A program made the position numbers and the translations under genes. The notes below the pieces were generated by a model. It saw nothing but the letters and a program-made list of their open reading frames with translations. It searched no databases and was not told the DNA's origin. From the NCBI GenBank assembly GCA_947258695.1, contig CAMYJG010000013.1:1-62626 (forward strand): a stretch of DNA of 62,626 nt. The letters are read 5' to 3'. The DNA comes from an uncultured Ectothiorhodospiraceae bacterium (GTDB lineage Bacteria; Pseudomonadota; Gammaproteobacteria; UBA6429; Thiohalophilaceae). Shown in pieces: positions 4,741-12,223 of this stretch; positions within the stretch are counted from its first letter, which is position 1; each line of letters starts with the position of its first letter.

Positions 4741-6759
4741 TTAGGCTTGCCAACCTAATTCGGCCGCCTTTGCTTGAGCTTGTGCCGGTACATCATTGTC
4801 AACAAAATGCTGATGCAACACCTGGACACCAATCATGTGATTGATTACAGCATCCAGTTGTACCTGTGTTGAAACCGGCGTGTCATCAGCTTCATGCAAT
4901 GCAAACAACGCTTTAACGCCTGCCTTATCGAGAAGGCCAGCCTTATCAACCGCTTCATCTGATAAATATTCATCCGCCAATGCTTTCATCGCCGCCCATT
5001 TTTTTGGATCGGTATGAGCCGGTGGCGCCATAAAAGCAAACTTCTCACGCTCATACAATGTTTTGGGAAGTACACCTTTCATCGCTTCACGCAATACGTA
5101 TTTTTCTGTCTTACCCTTAATACGCATTGTTGGAGGAATTTTGGTAGCAAACTCTGCCAGGTGATGATCCAGAAATGGTGGCCGTGCTTCCATCGAGTTC
5201 GCCATATCAACCCGGTCACCACCCCAGGTTAGTATTTGTCCTTCCAGCATAGTTTTAATCCAGACATACTGCGCTTTATCCAGAGGATGACGACCTTCTA
5301 ACATATCAGCATCGAGTGCATCAGCTATCGCTTTACCCGGTTGGTAGCCACTTAACTGTTCACGCAGTTGTGTATTTAATAAACCTGGAACGTGCTCAGC
5401 CGAAGCCAACCATGGTTGTAAACACGACGGGGTAAATCCAACGACATCATTTAATGCCGGGTCACTGACCTCATCTTCTGCAAGCATTGCACCTTTAAAT
5501 AGCTTATTGGCTTCAGCGAGTAACGCCTCCCATTCGGCGCGTTCAGCAGCTGATAATGTATCCATACCGTGCAGGAACATATCACGTCGAAATGCCGGGT
5601 AACCAGCAAACAATTCATCTGATCCTTCACCGGTTACAACGACTTTATAATTCGCTTTATTAACATGGCGGCTCATTAATAACTTGGCAACACCCAGCGT
5701 GTTATAAATCGTCCTTTCAGTATGCCAGAGTGTTTCGACAAAGTTATTATAAAGATGGTCTGCCTTGAGTAACATCACATCCTGGTCAGCGCCTACCGAC
5801 TCAGCCATTTCACGCGCAATCGGTGTTTCATCATAATCACTATCATCAAAACCAATGGTAAAGGCTTTTACTGATGATTGCTGGCTGGCGGCAGACATGC
5901 CTAATATTGAACAGGAGTCGATACCTCCAGATAAATAACAGGCAACAGGTACATCAGCTTCAAGACGCAACTGAACCGCCTCGAGTAATTTTTCTTTTAC
6001 ACCATTTACATAATAAGACTCATCATCTTTATCTTGTTGTTGTCTTTCTTCCAGTAATGGAAAATCCATATCCCAGTAGCGCTGTTCACGAATAGAAAAC
6101 TTGCCATGATTGCGTTCAATAATGACAGCATGTCCCGGTTTAACCTGGTGAATATTTTCAAATGCGGTACTGCCTGGTACGATTGTTTGCATGAGCTGGT
6201 GATAAACACCCTGTGCATTAAATTTACGCTCAACATCAGGGTCAGAAAAAATAACTTTAAGTTCTGAACCAAAAACAATTTTGCCATTGGTTTCAGTCCA
6301 GTATAACGGTTTAATACCAAAACGATCCCTGACCAGCATTAAGCGATCATGTTTTTTATCAAACAGCGCAAAAGCAAATTCACCACGTAAATGTTCGAGC
6401 ATATCCTCGAGGCCGTAACGCGGATAAAGATGAAGTATCAGCTCCGAATCACTTTTAGTCGCAAAACGTGCACCATCAAGCGTCAAATTTGCACGCAGTC
6501 TTTTGTAGTCGTAAAGTTCTCCGTTTTGTGCAAGCAACAGGTTATTATCTTCTGAAGCAAAAGGTTGTCTCGCCCGGTTTTCATTCAGATCAATAATCGA
6601 AAGACGGGCATGACTAAATCCAACACCCTGGTCATCCATGATCTTATAACCAAAACCATCAGGACCACGGTGATACTGGATCGCCGCCATGTTAACTAAA
6701 AGCTGTGGATCGATTTTATTACTGGGATTACTGTGAAAAATACCGGCTATGCCACACAT
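4741..6759 (-). CDS. asnB: Asparagine synthase (glutamine-hydrolysing)-type amidotransferase
   Basis: 672 residues. The N-terminal Ntn glutaminase domain starts MCGIAGIF with catalytic Cys2, RGPDGFG (31-37) and NGELYDY (79-85). The C-terminal ATP-pyrophosphatase domain has the PP-loop SGGIDS at 277-282 and a VTGEGSDELFAGYP segment. It should hydrolyse glutamine and transfer ammonia to an acyl-adenylate, classically aspartate. It is about 100 residues longer than E. coli AsnB. It lies 77 bp downstream of the carbamoyltransferase-like gene, separated by a terminator-like hairpin. Its place beside a carbamoyl-metabolism operon leaves open a substrate other than aspartate. Confidence 0.85.
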   Translation of the reverse strand: MCGIAGIFHSNPSNKIDPQLLVNMAAIQYHRGPDGFGYKIMDDQGVGFSHARLSIIDLNENRARQPFASEDNNLLLAQNGELYDYKRLRANLTLDGARFATKSDSELILHLYPRYGLEDMLEHLRGEFAFALFDKKHDRLMLVRDRFGIKPLYWTETNGKIVFGSELKVIFSDPDVERKFNAQGVYHQLMQTIVPGSTAFENIHQVKPGHAVIIERNHGKFSIREQRYWDMDFPLLEERQQQDKDDESYYVNGVKEKLLEAVQLRLEADVPVACYLSGGIDSCSILGMSAASQQSSVKAFTIGFDDSDYDETPIAREMAESVGADQDVMLLKADHLYNNFVETLWHTERTIYNTLGVAKLLMSRHVNKANYKVVVTGEGSDELFAGYPAFRRDMFLHGMDTLSAAERAEWEALLAEANKLFKGAMLAEDEVSDPALNDVVGFTPSCLQPWLASAEHVPGLLNTQLREQLSGYQPGKAIADALDADMLEGRHPLDKAQYVWIKTMLEGQILTWGGDRVDMANSMEARPPFLDHHLAEFATKIPPTMRIKGKTEKYVLREAMKGVLPKTLYEREKFAFMAPPAHTDPKKWAAMKALADEYLSDEAVDKAGLLDKAGVKALFALHEADDTPVSTQVQLDAVINHMIGVQVLHQHFVDNDVPAQAQAKAAELGWQA

Positions 6760-6797
6760 AAAAAACTATAAACCTCAAAATTTAAATAAAAAATAAT

Positions 6798-6834
6798 TTC
6801 AGAACGTCGAATCGGTAAGCGCTATCGTTCTGAA
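6798..6834 (-). terminator. Hairpin with T-rich tail between the carbamoyltransferase gene and asnB
   Basis: Nine-base perfect arms TTCAGAACG (6798-6806) and CGTTCTGAA (6826-6834) enclose 19 bases. Read on the minus strand, the stem is followed by ATTATTTTTTATTT, as in an intrinsic terminator. It lies right behind the stop of the carbamoyltransferase gene and before asnB, so it could end the upstream operon or attenuate readthrough into asnB. Confidence 0.6.
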
Positions 6835-6836
6835 TA

Positions 6837-7886
6837 TCAGAATCGAACCAGGCTGGACATCAATGCCATACGAGCAAAAACAGCACCACGAGCCTGGGCA
6901 AAATACCAGTTATGTTCAGTATCATCCAGATCAGTTGACAACTCTTCGCCACGTGCCAGTGGATGAAGCACAATAGATCCTTGTTTCAGAGGAGAAGATT
7001 TACTTAGCTTGTACTCAACGCCATGTTCTTCATAGGTGTTACCTACCCAGGCAATCGCGTTGATGTAAGTGATATCAAAGGCAGGTAACTCTTTATTCAG
7101 ATCATGAGAGACACGTAACTTTAAGCCTTCGGCTTCAAGTTCTTCACGTTGCCCATCATTAAATGATTCAGGTGAATTACTTATAATGACAACTTCATTA
7201 ATCGCCTGGCTAATACGGGATAAAAATATTAATAAACTACGTACAGTACGCATTCGGCTCGGATTGCCGATAATACCAATGGTGATTTTATTTTCTGTGC
7301 TGACTTCGTCCATCATTAATTCAGGCCGCCATTTAAAAATGGCATACATATCTGCTAATGCCTGGGTCGGATGTTCATCGGTACCATTACCAGCATTGAT
7401 AATGGGTATGCGAAGTACTTCGAGCATTTCATAAATAGCCCTTTCATTTGAGTCGCGTAATACCACCACGTCGCCATAATGGTTCATCATTTCGCCGACA
7501 TCTTTCAATGATTCACCTTTTGCAATACCGGTGGTTGAAGGATCCGTTATTGAAATAATATCACCACCGAGCCGGTGCCAGACACTTTCAAACGAAAGGC
7601 GAGTACGTGTACTTGGCTCATAGAACGCGCTGATAAGAATTTTTCCGGTTAATGGAAACTGGCCAAAGCTTTGTTGAGTTTCAAACTTTGCCGCTAAGCG
7701 ACAAAGTTGTATAAGTTGCACGCGACTAAATTGCTTGGCAGAAATGACCGAGTGATTAGCCAGCTCTGCTGTTGCAGCAAAATCTTCATCGATTTGATTC
7801 ATCAATGCTAAAGGCTGATCAATCCCTTCGGTCCAGTTTTCAGCTTCAATCGGTTCTTCGAGTTTTGGGTGTACTTTTTTTACCAT
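6837..7886 (-). CDS. Aspartate/ornithine carbamoyltransferase-family protein, divergent acceptor site
   Basis: 349 residues. An N-terminal extension of about 40 residues precedes a carbamoyltransferase fold. The carbamoyl-phosphate site is intact: STRTR at 92-96, GKGESL-type loop with K123, HPTQALADMYAI from 172, and HPLARG from 308. The C-terminus (WYFAQARGAVFARMALM) is ATCase-like. However, the region where ATCase carries R-V-Q-x-E-R for aspartate binding reads INAIAWVGNTYEEHG (275-289), so the acceptor is probably not aspartate. It may form or phosphorolyse an N-carbamoyl compound. Its ATG overlaps the stop of the upstream microprotein gene (ATGGTAA), implying translational coupling. Confidence 0.8.
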   Translation of the reverse strand: MVKKVHPKLEEPIEAENWTEGIDQPLALMNQIDEDFAATAELANHSVISAKQFSRVQLIQLCRLAAKFETQQSFGQFPLTGKILISAFYEPSTRTRLSFESVWHRLGGDIISITDPSTTGIAKGESLKDVGEMMNHYGDVVVLRDSNERAIYEMLEVLRIPIINAGNGTDEHPTQALADMYAIFKWRPELMMDEVSTENKITIGIIGNPSRMRTVRSLLIFLSRISQAINEVVIISNSPESFNDGQREELEAEGLKLRVSHDLNKELPAFDITYINAIAWVGNTYEEHGVEYKLSKSSPLKQGSIVLHPLARGEELSTDLDDTEHNWYFAQARGAVFARMALMSSLVRF

Positions 7887-8002
7887 AACTGACCCTTTTT
7901 CCAGTCCTTAATCCATAAGATAACTAAAACAATTGGTGCGATAATTGTTACCGTTAATGCAATAGTTACCATCACACTGAGGAAACCCGATGACACAATC
8001 AT
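7880..8002 (-). CDS. 40-residue single-helix membrane microprotein (symporter accessory type)
   Basis: A short frame on the minus strand from the ATG at 8002 to the TAA at 7880 encodes MIVSSGFLSVMVTIALTVTI followed by IAPIVLVILWIKDWKKGQLW. It is one long hydrophobic helix with a positively charged Trp/Lys tail. Its start overlaps the symporter stop (ATGA), and its stop overlaps the next gene's ATG, so it sits in a fully coupled set. Tiny one-helix proteins encoded directly behind SSS-family symporters are annotated in other bacteria as symporter small accessory proteins. The role here is inferred from position and shape only. Confidence 0.7.
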   Translation of the reverse strand: MIVSSGFLSVMVTIALTVTIIAPIVLVILWIKDWKKGQLW

Positions 8003-9453
8003 AATGCTTTCTCCCCGGTTAATTGATTCGCGTTTTCATTTAATCTTTCCCATTCAAAGTTGTCCGGTATTAACCACATACTGATTAATACGATAGACAT
8101 AGAGACTACCGCTGAAACCAGTGCCGCTACATAGAAGCCGATACTGAAGAAAGCCCAGATACCACTCAGGGTGCCAAGTAACATGGCGAGAAATGCACCT
8201 GTTGAATTGGCTTTTTTCAGATACAGGCCGGCTGCTATTGGCCAGATGGTACTGGCAACAAAGGCGCCAAGGTATTGTAATAAACTACCTAACGTCGCGA
8301 TGCGTGGTAAACAAATTAGCCAGGTAATAATGCCAAGTAAAACGATAATTATTTTTGCTATACGACGCAGTTGTTCATCACTGGCCTGGGGATTAATATG
8401 GCCACGGTAAATATCCTGAAGAATTAAATCACTTGTTGCGGCAAGTAATGAATCAAGACTGGATGCGAGGGAAGAGAAGACAACAATAAACACAATTACC
8501 GCACCAGTAAAACCAAGCAACTTGGCCGCTACCATTGGGCCGACCATATCAGCAGCTGGAACATTTAGGCCAAGTGAGGAAACCGATAGCGCAATAAATC
8601 CTGCAACAATCGGTATCGGAGCCCAGATAATGCCGGCCAGTAAATATGCTTTGCTGCCTACACCTTCACGGAAGGCAAAGGCACGCGACCACCAGACATT
8701 GGAATGAAATATTTCACCTATACCGAACAATAAATTATTAAACAGGAACATAATGGCCGCAGGCATTAAAAGATTAAGTAATTCCGGTTGCTCTGACAAA
8801 ACATCCTTGTGCATTTTCTCAAAACCAATTTCACTAATTGTCAGAACGGCGAGAATAATAACGCCAACAAGAATAAGAATAGTTTGTATAAAGTCAGTAC
8901 CAATGACTGCGCGTAATCCACCGAGTAAGGTGTAAGTCACACATATAATAAGAATAACAGTCATGCCGTACTGGTAATCGATTCCAGTCAAAGCATGTAT
9001 TAACACTCCACCGGCCATACCCATACTAATTAGCCAGCCGACGGCATAACACATGGAAATCAAAAGAAATAAACGCCAGGTCCAGACGCCATAACGCAAG
9101 CGAATAAAGTCACCACTGGTATAGCCATGAGGTACCAGGCTGCGGATTCGTTTTACCAGCGGAGCAAATAAAATTAAGCCAATACAACCCAGTGAATATC
9201 CCAACATACCCCAGATACCGAGTTGTAATGCAAACTGCGGCGCAACAAGCGTGGTGTTACTGGTTACCCAGGTAGCCATCGCCGTTGCGGTTCCCAATGC
9301 CATGCCCACGTTACGACCAGCAAGCATAAAATCATCCAGTTGCTTGGTTTTCCGCCCCCAGAACCAGCCGAGAAAAATCCAGATGGCACTAAAGATTGCC
9401 AGGATTATCCAGCCCGTGTTGGCATCAAGAATGGCGGAGTTAACATTATTCAT
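7999..9453 (-). CDS. Sodium:solute symporter family transporter, DUR3/urea-transporter-like
   Basis: 484 residues with about 13 predicted membrane helices. The LDDFMLAGRNVGMALGTATA opening, followed by MATWVTSNTTL and GYTSGDFIRLRYG, is typical of the SSS branch that contains the fungal and plant DUR3 urea permeases. It should take up a small uncharged or weakly charged solute with a cation across the inner membrane. Neighbouring N-carbamoyl hydrolases suggest a ureide, urea or hydantoin-like substrate, which is inference. The start overlaps the isochorismatase stop by 4 bp and the stop overlaps the microprotein start. Confidence 0.85.
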   Translation of the reverse strand: MNNVNSAILDANTGWIILAIFSAIWIFLGWFWGRKTKQLDDFMLAGRNVGMALGTATAMATWVTSNTTLVAPQFALQLGIWGMLGYSLGCIGLILFAPLVKRIRSLVPHGYTSGDFIRLRYGVWTWRLFLLISMCYAVGWLISMGMAGGVLIHALTGIDYQYGMTVILIICVTYTLLGGLRAVIGTDFIQTILILVGVIILAVLTISEIGFEKMHKDVLSEQPELLNLLMPAAIMFLFNNLLFGIGEIFHSNVWWSRAFAFREGVGSKAYLLAGIIWAPIPIVAGFIALSVSSLGLNVPAADMVGPMVAAKLLGFTGAVIVFIVVFSSLASSLDSLLAATSDLILQDIYRGHINPQASDEQLRRIAKIIIVLLGIITWLICLPRIATLGSLLQYLGAFVASTIWPIAAGLYLKKANSTGAFLAMLLGTLSGIWAFFSIGFYVAALVSAVVSMSIVLISMWLIPDNFEWERLNENANQLTGEKAL

Positions 9454-10199
9454 GTCGCTGCATGTTCCTTGATATCATTGACAGCTTGTTCTGTTGTCAT
9501 GACACGCGCATAACGATCGCGAATGGTTTCAATGGTGGCGTTATGAAGTTGAGGCGTCACCGTGGCGCAGGCATCATTAATCAACGTGGTATAAAAGCCG
9601 CGGTCACAGGCATCACGTACCGTGGTGGAAACACATTCATTGGTATAAACACCACATATAAACAAACCGGTAATTCCCATGTTTCTTAAAATATATTCAA
9701 GATTGGTCGCGTTAAACACACCACTTGCTGTCTTATTGATGATAAGTTCATCGCCTTTAGGTGCTATTTCAACAAGGAACTCCGACTCTTTTGAGCCAGG
9801 TGCTGCATGTAGATTAAGTCGTTTATGACCCGCACTTCGTTCTCTGCCATCCTGGGTCATTGACATAATACGGGTATGTATCACTTCCATATTTAAATCG
9901 CGAAACTTATCCTGTAGTTTGCGTACATTAGGTAACACCATATGATCGAGTCGTTTAAAATAATATTCCTGAGCCTCTTTGGGCACACCCGATTTTTCAG
10001 CATCGGCAAATACACCAAATCCTGGCGCGGCATCAAGATACTGCAGGTCAATTACCAGTAATGCGGTTTTATGTTTTTCTATAGATTCAACAACACCTGG
10101 GGCTTCGGCAATGGATTCGCGATAACTATCTTCTAACGGATCCACATGGAGAAATTCTTTATTATCAATATCAAGGTCGGTCTTTTTCAAATCACTCAT
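9450..10199 (-). CDS. Isochorismatase-fold cysteine hydrolase (carbamoyl/ureido amidohydrolase type)
   Basis: 249 residues. The catalytic triad of the family is present: D51 in LLVIDLQ, K156 in INKTASGVFNAT and C189 in GVYTNECVSTTVRDA. The G-V-x-T-x-x-C-V arrangement is that of amidohydrolases such as N-carbamoylsarcosine amidase, ureidoacrylate amidohydrolase (RutB) and biuret hydrolase, not of isochorismatase proper. It likely releases ammonia and CO2 from a carbamoylated amine in the cytoplasm. It overlaps the upstream hydrolase gene and the downstream symporter gene by 4 bp each, so all three are translationally coupled. The substrate is unknown. Confidence 0.85.
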   Translation of the reverse strand: MSDLKKTDLDIDNKEFLHVDPLEDSYRESIAEAPGVVESIEKHKTALLVIDLQYLDAAPGFGVFADAEKSGVPKEAQEYYFKRLDHMVLPNVRKLQDKFRDLNMEVIHTRIMSMTQDGRERSAGHKRLNLHAAPGSKESEFLVEIAPKGDELIINKTASGVFNATNLEYILRNMGITGLFICGVYTNECVSTTVRDACDRGFYTTLINDACATVTPQLHNATIETIRDRYARVMTTEQAVNDIKEHAAT

Positions 10200-11440
10200 A
10201 AATGGCCTCCGGCAATTCGATACATCGAGTTAAGTGCCACATTGGCGCCTTTTTCTATATCATCCATATCGGTCCATTCTGCGATCGAATGGCTACGGCC
10301 GTCTTTACTCGGCACAAAAATCATACCGGCACGAGTAATATTGGCCATCATCTGTGCATCATGAGCTGCACCACTGGCCATTTGTAAAAAAGGTATCTTC
10401 AATGATTTGCATACATTTTCGATAGTCTCAACAATACCGGCATCACTTTTAACCGGCGTTATTTCACTAAGAACACGAAACTCAAACATCAGTTCATGCT
10501 TACGGGCAATGGCGGATAACGATTTCCGAAATGCATTGGCAAGATCATCCAGTGTGTCTGGATTGGTATCGCGTGCTTCGAGTGAGAATTCGACCTTACC
10601 TGGGATAACATTGGCTGCTCCAGGACTGATTTCCACCCGTCCAATCGTTGCAACACTGCGCGGGCTACCACTTTCATCAATTAGTCGTTGTAACTGGGAT
10701 GCAAATTCACTTAAGCCCATGAATGCATCTTTACGCATATCCATGGGCGTGGTTCCAGCGTGATTTGCGGCACCTGTTAAGATAACATCCCATTTAAATA
10801 AACCGGCAATGGCATCAACATTGCCGATACCAATACTCATATCATCCAGCATGGGCCCCTGTTCAATGTGTAATTCCAGGTAAGCATAAATTGAATCCGG
10901 CTGACGCCTGGCATGTAATGCATCCATCGCATCCAGACCGACATTTTTCATTGCCTCTGTAATGGTGACACCATTAAGATCGGTGGCATTAATAATTTTT
11001 TCTGGTGTTAACATGCCGGTAATCGCCTGCGAACCCAGCATGCCACCGAAACGACCCTCTTCATCACTAAAAGCCACGGCTTCAAGGGGAAAATCGATTT
11101 TAAGATTCTGTTCTTTTATGCAGCGCAAACATTCCAGCGCAACAATCACTCCCAAGGCACCATCAAGGTGACCTGCTGCGGGCACGGTATCCATATGTGA
11201 TCCCATCATCACTGAGGGACGTTTTTCATCCCACTGATAACGCGCATGTAAGTTGGCTGCACCATCCTGGTAAAATTCAAGACCTGCTTCCTCGGCCTTT
11301 TGTTTAAACCACGCCCGAGCTTGCATATCGCCTTCACTGAACGCCATGCGATAAATACCATAATCTTCATTACGTCCGATATCGGCCAGTGTTTCTATAT
11401 CAGATTGCAATCGTTCGCGGTTAATATTAAGAATATTCAT
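10196..11440 (-). CDS. M20-family N-carbamoyl-amino-acid / allantoate amidohydrolase
   Basis: 414 residues, the usual length for the AllC/HyuC/beta-ureidopropionase group. Metal ligands and catalytic residues are visible: MGSHMDTVPAAGHLDGALGV (H82, D93), AFSDEEGRFGG (E127/E128), LELHIEQGP (H191) and a C-terminal ASGAAHDAQMM His. The TTPMDMRKDA segment belongs to the dimerisation lid. It should hydrolyse an N-carbamoyl group to amine, CO2 and ammonia. It is the first enzyme gene of the cluster and overlaps the amidohydrolase gene by 4 bp (ATGA). Allantoate, N-carbamoyl-amino acid and ureidopropionate remain equally possible. Confidence 0.85.
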   Translation of the reverse strand: MNILNINRERLQSDIETLADIGRNEDYGIYRMAFSEGDMQARAWFKQKAEEAGLEFYQDGAANLHARYQWDEKRPSVMMGSHMDTVPAAGHLDGALGVIVALECLRCIKEQNLKIDFPLEAVAFSDEEGRFGGMLGSQAITGMLTPEKIINATDLNGVTITEAMKNVGLDAMDALHARRQPDSIYAYLELHIEQGPMLDDMSIGIGNVDAIAGLFKWDVILTGAANHAGTTPMDMRKDAFMGLSEFASQLQRLIDESGSPRSVATIGRVEISPGAANVIPGKVEFSLEARDTNPDTLDDLANAFRKSLSAIARKHELMFEFRVLSEITPVKSDAGIVETIENVCKSLKIPFLQMASGAAHDAQMMANITRAGMIFVPSKDGRSHSIAEWTDMDDIEKGANVALNSMYRIAGGHL

Positions 11441-11447
11441 AGAGTCT

Positions 11448-11969
11448 TTAGTTATTTTCCTTTGTGTTACCTTTTACGATCAAAATGATGATCGAAACGA
11501 ATACAATCGCACCGGCAATAAAAAATAAAATGGCATTTTTAAGTGGGTGATGCGCAACCGTCACTTTAACCACATCACTTGTATATGATTGGTTATCACG
11601 GCTCGTCTTTAAACGATAAAAATATTGTCCATCAGATTTACCGCTCATGACACGAGCGAGGTCCTTACCTTGGTAAATAATATTGAATGTTCTGAAGTCA
11701 GGTGTTGTTGATTCTTGTAACTGGAAAACGCTGTCTTTTCCAGACCAGTTTAACTGGTAATAGCCTGCTGTTGATACTTGTGAATCTGTACTGAGTTGAA
11801 GTGCAAACGAATACTGAGCTGTCGAGAAAAATAATAGCCCGATACTAAAAAGTAATTTTGTGTGGGGGGGGGGATTTCGAACAAGCAGGAGCGCGCAGCT
11901 GCACCCAAAAATAGGAAGGAACAGAAGCCTGCCCCAACGGGCAATCCGGCTTGTTACCTTTAAAATCAT
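11448..11969 (-). CDS. Membrane-anchored beta-sandwich-like protein with disturbed N-terminus
   Basis: The frame gives 173 residues. A signal-peptide-like helix (KLLFSIGLLFFSTAQYSFA) is preceded by about 38 residues read through a G+C-richer stretch with a ten-G run (C10 in the coding strand). It is followed by a fibronectin-III-like part (YYQLNWSG, FQLQEST, YFYRLKT) and a C-terminal membrane helix (NAILFFIAGAIVFVSIIILI). The natural start is probably near the signal helix. The upstream part looks foreign, or the gene has been cut or shifted at the homopolymer. It ends 7 bp before the M20 hydrolase start, so it likely heads that operon. Function is unknown. Confidence 0.55.
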   Translation of the reverse strand: MILKVTSRIARWGRLLFLPIFGCSCALLLVRNPPPHTKLLFSIGLLFFSTAQYSFALQLSTDSQVSTAGYYQLNWSGKDSVFQLQESTTPDFRTFNIIYQGKDLARVMSGKSDGQYFYRLKTSRDNQSYTSDVVKVTVAHHPLKNAILFFIAGAIVFVSIIILIVKGNTKENN

Positions 11970-12146: not shown

Positions 12147-12223
12147 TGGCGTCCCCGGCAGGAATCGAACCTGCAACCTACGCCTTAGGAGGGCATTGCG
12201 CTATCCAGTTGTGCCACGGGGAC
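12147..12223 (-). tRNA. tRNA-Arg (anticodon CCT)
   Basis: On the minus strand the gene folds as a full cloverleaf: acceptor GTCCCCG/CGGGGAC, anticodon stem ATGCC/GGCGT with loop CTCCTAA giving anticodon CCT, and T arm GCAGG-TTCGATT-CCTGC. Discriminator G and an encoded CCA (12147-12149) follow. The D stem has one A-C mismatch. It reads AGG codons. It stands alone between the ureide-type operon and the flagellar brake gene. Confidence 0.95.

Follow-up and report, generated by a model that had tools for sequence, protein, structure and literature searches.

The gene cluster described here occupies positions 4,741 to 11,969 of a 62,626-nucleotide stretch of DNA (the window), which comprises positions 1 to 62,626 of contig CAMYJG010000013.1 (forward strand) in GCA_947258695.1, the assembly of an uncultured Ectothiorhodospiraceae bacterium placed by GTDB in the family Thiohalophilaceae. 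Seven genes lie on the minus strand, in the order FN3-like membrane protein, M20 enzyme, amidase, SSS symporter, microprotein, carbamoyltransferase (CT), and AsnB-like amidotransferase; the five enzymes and transporter among them were assigned to families with Pfam and NCBIfam models. We propose, with a probability of roughly 0.7, that this cluster makes, takes up, and recycles N-carbamoyl-glutamine amide (CGA), a protectant of some salt-loving bacteria. The genes observed at the locus are as follows.

11448-11969, minus strand: open reading frame (ORF) of the FN3-fold membrane protein (173 aa)
10196-11440, minus strand: M20 N-carbamoyl-L-amino-acid amidohydrolase-type enzyme (414 aa; NCBIfam TIGR01879, PRK09290.1-5)
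9450-10199, minus strand: isochorismatase-fold cysteine amidase (249 aa; Pfam Isochorismatase)
7999-9453, minus strand: SSS-family sodium/solute symporter (484 aa; Pfam SSF)
7880-8002, minus strand: one-helix microprotein with a C-terminal Trp (40-aa ORF between the symporter and CT)
6837-7886, minus strand: carbamoyltransferase CT, the third of the genome (349 aa; Pfam OTCace_N/OTCace)
4741-6759, minus strand: AsnB-like glutamine amidotransferase (672 aa; Pfam Asn_synthase + GATase)

A preliminary description of this DNA had named six of these ORFs, all but the FN3 gene. All six lie on the minus strand at the positions listed, including the small ORF between the symporter and the carbamoyltransferase, and the Pfam and NCBIfam models agree with its family calls for the M20, isochorismatase-fold, carbamoyltransferase, and AsnB-like proteins. 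Its picture of genes packed on one strand by ATGA overlaps held at three junctions (M20/amidase, amidase/symporter, and symporter/microprotein), and the CT start overlaps the microprotein end, but the AsnB-like gene is separated from CT by a 77-base gap.

Of the 57 other relatives searched, 13 have a CT orthologue with 61 to 91% identity, after which identity dropped to 37%. Within the genus, CT was recovered from one of seven other genomes (89% identity) and was not found in six, some genomes being incomplete. Co-occurrence was then assessed for CT, AsnB, and the amidase only, over 369 genomes of the class, with cuts for CT and the amidase set in visible gaps after the scores were seen and the cut for AsnB set beforehand. 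Each of the three was present in 23 genomes (CT at E ≤ 1e-100, next score 1e-74; AsnB at E ≤ 1e-180; amidase at E ≤ 1e-120, next score 1e-54), and the three genome sets were identical and spanned 15 families. Among 398 genomes of the phylum, CT at E ≤ 1e-80 was present in the window genome and one other only; the latter, labeled as belonging to the phylum but not to the class, has FN3-symporter-microprotein-CT-AsnB at 28 to 56% identity, with a 45% identical M20 gene nearby in the opposite direction.

Gene order was compared across 80 named loci, the best 80 of 534 confirmed relatives; absence from this list is uninformative, and a part was called missing with respect to flanks of about 9 kb or less. 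The CTs of these loci are 56 to 91% identical to the window CT. They come from genera that include Ectothiorhodospira, Thioalkalivibrio, Thiorhodospira, Thiohalophilus, Thiohalobacter, Thiodiazotropha, Thiogranum, Kangiella, Idiomarina, and Aliidiomarina, which are largely marine, halophilic, or soda-lake genera, and a few loci are in bins labeled Spirochaetes, Leptospiraceae, Planctomycetota, and others. In 77 of the 80, AsnB lies downstream of CT in the same orientation, with the M20 and amidase genes intervening in three of these (L141, L149, and L150). The preliminary description had named conservation of the neighbors as a check on its pathway idea, and both the shared set of 23 genomes and this gene order bear that conservation out and, with the recurrence of the microprotein, put the grouping beyond chance. 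Of the three exceptions, two come from records that stop ≤130 bases from CT. The third is Thiorhodospira sibirica, in which CT (60% identity) and AsnB (75%) are unlinked, ~0.7 Mb apart, and in which the other parts were not found in the 16 kb surrounding CT or AsnB, the rest of that genome not having been searched.

All seven parts were seen in 49 of the 80 loci. The seven Ectothiorhodospira loci, together with L093 and L132, carry M20-amidase-CT-AsnB without the FN3 gene, symporter, or microprotein. Loci of Kangiella, Idiomarina, and Aliidiomarina carry FN3-symporter-CT-AsnB without the amidase, mostly with the microprotein, and two Kangiella loci have a more distant M20 gene (46% identity) near the cluster in the opposite direction. 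Because modules are gained and lost between loci in this way, we regard CT plus AsnB as a constant core, accompanied by one degradation module and one transport module.

CT scored below all 17 listed NCBIfam cutoffs, including those for aspartate carbamoyltransferase (ATCase; 186 of 263 bits and 185 of 237 bits), ornithine carbamoyltransferase, and putrescine carbamoyltransferase. Three PF02729 places are present in the window genome, as in each of five other cluster genomes. For residue comparison, we aligned 100 CT rows (99 plus the window), orthologues being defined by ≥50% identity, with 34 other rows of PyrB, ArgF, and intermediate types; the 100 rows are non-identical, some genomes are included twice via two loci, and sequences of <250 aa were dropped. 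Positions follow E. coli ATCase numbering, in which R167 binds the α-carboxylate and R229 and Q231 the side-chain carboxylate of the substrate. The carbamoyl-phosphate positions (STRT, R105, H134, and Q137) are conserved in 99 or 100 of the 100 CTs, the exceptions being one gap at STRT and one K at Q137, and the positions of K84 and R167 are retained. The pocket around the side chain is changed: neither ATCase side-chain residue is found, the R229 position being A in 69 sequences, S in 23, T in 7, and K in 1, and the Q231 position A in 96, V in 2, L in 1, and S in 1. The P268 position is A in all 100 (HPLP to HPLA), and N276, W280, and A311 (window numbering) are likewise invariant. From these residues, we infer that the substrate would be an L-amino acid with a free α-carboxylate and a non-acidic side chain, with carbamoylation preceding amidation, and we propose CT as a putative glutamine N-carbamoyltransferase. 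The structure model of CT, built from 14 rows, is ATCase-like (predicted local distance difference test [pLDDT] score, 82.4), and the 50 best solved-structure matches listed for it are all ATCases. A spare PyrB or ArgF was rejected on the basis of the cutoffs, the residues, and the presence of separate PyrB-like and ArgF-like genes. Four other carbamoyltransferases (L072, L073, L075, and L077) have 32 to 37% identity to CT and retain the R167 position; around R229/Q231 they are unlike both ATCase and CT and possibly represent another group.

The AsnB-like protein exceeded the cutoff of the generic asparagine synthase model TIGR01536 (436.5 of 267.1 bits) and fell below those of the specific models for the XrtA-associated type (393 of 817 bits), the amidotransferase of N-acetylglutaminylglutamine amide (NAGGN) synthesis (TIGR03104; 300.6 of 570.1 bits), and AsnB-B (280 of 499 bits). 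The preliminary description had stated that its pathway idea would fail if each enzyme belonged to a well-known, unrelated subfamily; CT scores below every cutoff listed for it and AsnB below those of the three specific types, but AsnB does pass the generic model. Counted with duplicates and without a start-motif filter, Cys2 is present in 144 of 144 cluster-type homologues that reach the start, and SGGxDS is present in all 142 that cover the motif. The cluster rows form a single clade with 100/100 support in a 24-row tree, which we used solely for the unity of these rows because the program warned of long branches meeting. An identity as an NAGGN or XrtA enzyme was rejected by the cutoffs and the tree, separate enzymes of those types having been scanned as well. 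An ordinary asparagine synthase is compatible with the sequence, which passes TIGR01536, and in Kangiella and Idiomarina the genome has no strong AsnB-type match besides the cluster gene; we judge this identity unlikely because the gene keeps company with CT and the amidase. We propose that this protein may be an N-carbamoyl-glutamine α-amide synthetase.

Both hydrolases have intact catalytic residues. In the amidase, D51, K156, and C189, which we take to be the catalytic triad, are invariant in 10 of 10 aligned sequences, and its scores against the curated models for the biuret hydrolase BiuH (83 of 370 bits) and RutB (59 of 378 bits) are below cutoff; it is proposed to hydrolyze the α-amide of the solute. 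The M20 protein exceeded the cutoffs of TIGR01879 (386 of 204 bits) and PRK09290.1-5 (538 of 399 bits) and reached 380 of 520 bits against the model for a relative, the N-carbamyl-L-glutamate amidohydrolase ErtE. Nine of its residues (H82, D84, D93, E127, E128, H191, H227, R290, and H384) are invariant in 11 of 11 aligned sequences, some of them presumably forming the metal-binding site of the allantoate amidohydrolase/N-carbamoylase family. It is proposed as the enzyme that releases the carbamoyl group.

The symporter exceeded the cutoff for Pfam SSF and scored 137.5 of 184 bits against TIGR00813. The preliminary description called it DUR3-like; its NCBIfam matches, all below cutoff, are to general SSS superfamily, PanF-, PutP-, and other symporter models, with none specific to DUR3 and no DUR3 reference compared. 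It is the proposed uptake carrier for the solute, with the two small proteins as proposed accessory parts. At E ≤ 1, neither Pfam nor NCBIfam has a model matching the microprotein, which is present in 67 of the 80 named loci, with a C-terminal Trp in all 67 and Leu-Trp in 58; we propose it as an accessory subunit of the symporter. The FN3 protein, likewise a proposed accessory protein, was accompanied by the symporter wherever it was seen among the 80 loci. It has a C-terminal membrane helix and no Pfam or NCBIfam sequence family above cutoff, and its structure model (pLDDT, 82.7) matches FN3 folds with a best E of 2e-4 and a TM-score of 0.41. Its true start probably lies downstream of 11969, judging from an alignment.

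Together, these genes most likely represent a conserved synthesis, uptake, and recycling cluster for an N-carbamoylated, α-amidated amino acid, with CGA the likeliest product. CT would move the carbamoyl group of carbamoyl phosphate onto the α-amino group of L-glutamine, and the AsnB-like enzyme, with ATP and a second glutamine, would then convert the α-carboxyl group into a carboxamide to give a neutral solute, in parallel with the AsnB-type enzyme of NAGGN synthesis. In recycling, the isochorismatase-fold enzyme would strip the α-amide and the M20 enzyme the carbamoyl group, yielding glutamine, while the symporter, with the microprotein and the FN3 protein, would recover external solute. Assembly of a carbamoylated metabolite had been one of two ideas in the preliminary description, and it is this idea that gains support, with CGA now named as the candidate product.

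The choice of CGA draws on Ectothiorhodospira marismortui, the organism from which two papers (PMC1224877 and PMC3857566) report the compound; PMC3857566 cites Galinski and Oren (1991) for its description. The genome of its type strain, DSM 4180, is FOUO00000000, according to PMC8877833. The cluster is present in this genome as M20-amidase-CT-AsnB at locus L107 (NZ_FOUO01000006.1), and all 10 genomes searched in the genus have CT, one as a partial match. We take the strain in which CGA was discovered to be this type strain. Three carbamoyltransferase places were found in the genome, and the other two (L165 and L170) are ArgF- and PyrB-like by alignment. In the region L107:3879-13152, the cluster lies between a sucrose synthase (TIGR02470; 1,182 of 810 bits) and a PfkB kinase, with a MarR-type gene also flanking it; homologues of all three lie inside all seven named Ectothiorhodospira loci, the kinase being several kilobases further away in two. 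PMC7824335 names sucrose among compatible solutes, and the Ectothiorhodospira setting is apparently a compatible-solute locus. Across the 80 loci, homologues of the MarR gene (E ≤ 1e-8), sucrose synthase, and the PfkB kinase were found in 28, 9, and 15, respectively.

Several points weigh against CGA as the product. Glutamine is the proposed amino acid, and asparagine or another neutral amino acid would possibly fit as well. The passing score of AsnB against the generic TIGR01536 also counts against CGA, though the XrtA and NAGGN enzymes scanned exceed the same model, so that this match does not discriminate between substrates. PMC3857566 describes CGA as a minor solute, so far of one organism, while the genes occur in many genera. 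Of the eight AsnB-type matches in E. marismortui, five are strong (the CT neighbor, an XrtA type [L180], an NAGGN type [L186], one that passes the generic model only [L194], and L197), and the assignment of AsnB in that genome therefore rests on linkage. Searches of the window with the sucrose synthase, MarR, PfkB, and glutamine synthetase sequences gave no match at E ≤ 1. T. sibirica, left without annotated osmotic-stress genes in PMC7824335, has an NAGGN amidotransferase over cutoff (L184), and CGA need not be its solute for that reason. Cluster genomes show no enrichment of ectoine synthase, which served as an osmoadaptation marker (2 of 23 versus 48 of 346 others; Fisher P = 0.75), and this control lent no support to an osmotic role. 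No assignment of genes to CGA was found in the open literature searched, which excluded subscription papers and preprints and in which CGA appears in PMC1224877, PMC3857566, and PMC7824335, nor were salt-stress studies naming these genes.

Three other explanations were considered. CT and AsnB might instead make the N-carbamoyl α-amide of another neutral amino acid, such as asparagine, which would still be an osmolyte. The change in the CT pocket tells only that the acidic side chain is unclamped, and since the named CT orthologues are 56 to 91% identical to the window CT, there is room for drift in substrate. We nevertheless consider this unlikely: N276, W280, and A311 do not vary among the 100 CTs, and the known solute of this kind in a cluster-bearing organism is the glutamine compound. 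A product of CT and AsnB used for nitrogen storage, signaling, or specialized metabolism, with no osmotic link, would agree with the nitrogen richness of the product, the distribution of ectoine synthase, and the glutamine synthetase homologues found in 7 of the 80 loci, all Thioalkalivibrio. Set against these are the sucrose synthase, MarR, and PfkB neighborhood in Ectothiorhodospira and the report of CGA as an osmotic solute in E. marismortui, and we give this explanation the lowest standing of the three.

Only slightly higher, and still highly improbable, is the other idea of the preliminary description, that a ureide is taken up and degraded and its carbamoyl phosphate regained. Here the symporter would import the compound, the amidase and M20 enzyme would strip groups from it, and CT would run backwards to carbamoyl phosphate and thence ATP. 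Two carbamoyl/amide hydrolase families and a symporter in one cluster speak for such a route, and oxamate carbamoyltransferase is a precedent for carbamoyl-phosphate recovery. The intact, ATP-using AsnB has no role in this scheme, however, and CT plus AsnB persist at loci that lack the symporter or the amidase; the cluster genes do not include a carbamate kinase, the rest of the genome not having been searched for one. Ureide catabolism is therefore not favored.

Two further features lie at the upstream end of the cluster.

11858-11960, minus strand: conserved operon leader, a candidate structured RNA, leader peptide, or regulatory site (nhmmer, covariation)
12147-12223, minus strand: tRNA-Arg(cct), immediately upstream of the cluster

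The leader, which has predicted hairpins, precedes the FN3 gene both in the window and in nine distinct relatives; an nhmmer model built from seven sequences matched those seven and three further distinct relatives. Covariation over the 10 sequences is modest (13 consensus pairs, 6 with two-sided change), and the single-sequence fold is unremarkable (z = −1.27). A search of 901 bases against Rfam returned nothing over the gathering score except the upstream tRNA. The leader may act as a regulatory RNA, encode a leader peptide, or contain a binding site. The tRNA gene, considered with the patchy presence of the cluster in the genus, may mark an insertion site. The gap between CT and AsnB folds no better than shuffled sequences, promoter-like sites occur at chance level, and terminator-like sites number 13, compared with a shuffle mean of 6.6, and are mostly intragenic.

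On balance, we think it probable that the cluster is the missing gene set for CGA, with its own recycling branch and a three-part symporter, and that it is widespread in marine and haline bacteria. If so, a solute reported from one species would be a common osmolyte, given the wide distribution of the genes. It would also account for a conserved operon carried under generic names (aspartate carbamoyltransferase, asparagine synthase, and allantoate amidohydrolase) and provide one possible solute for T. sibirica. The two-enzyme candidate has a clear sequence signature, which makes synthesis testable in E. coli and the solute predictable from genomes, and the cluster hints that two small proteins assist its symporter. 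Apparently new are the proposed assignment of genes to CGA, the three-part symporter, and a CT subfamily whose pocket is altered.

The general logic is already known from AsnB-type osmolyte clusters, of which the NAGGN type (asnO-ngg; PA3459-PA3461, with the MarR gene PA3458) is a close parallel. In Pseudomonas aeruginosa, the NAGGN operon with its AsnB-type enzyme is under repression by a MarR regulator (PMC8070244). The NAGGN enzyme makes a terminal glutamine amide, as proposed for the cluster AsnB, and MarR-type neighbors occur in both systems, here at 28 of the 80 loci, but the NAGGN cluster has a GNAT acetyltransferase where this one has a carbamoyltransferase, and the cluster AsnB reaches 301 bits against the NAGGN cutoff of 570. 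The window genome carries a separate NAGGN amidotransferase with 938 bits against the same cutoff. That gene is ~5 kb from the ArgF-like gene of the genome (region G000:C17:24813-30882), and the corresponding pair in Thiohalophilus (G406:C8) is likewise ~5 kb apart. Compared with PyrB, CT has the same fold and carbamoyl-phosphate site but falls below the ATCase cutoffs, has the side-chain carboxylate residues swapped, and coexists with a separate PyrB-like gene in the genome. With the oxamate carbamoyltransferase route and allantoin-type catabolism, the cluster shares the pairing of a carbamoyltransferase-fold gene with an M20 carbamoylase gene; the difference is that CT here has an AsnB-type synthetase as its constant partner. 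The nearest chemical counterpart is the CGA of E. marismortui, where the cluster in the type-strain genome encodes both kinds of enzyme that the structure of the compound requires; CGA is known chemically from that organism and is the proposed product in the window organism.

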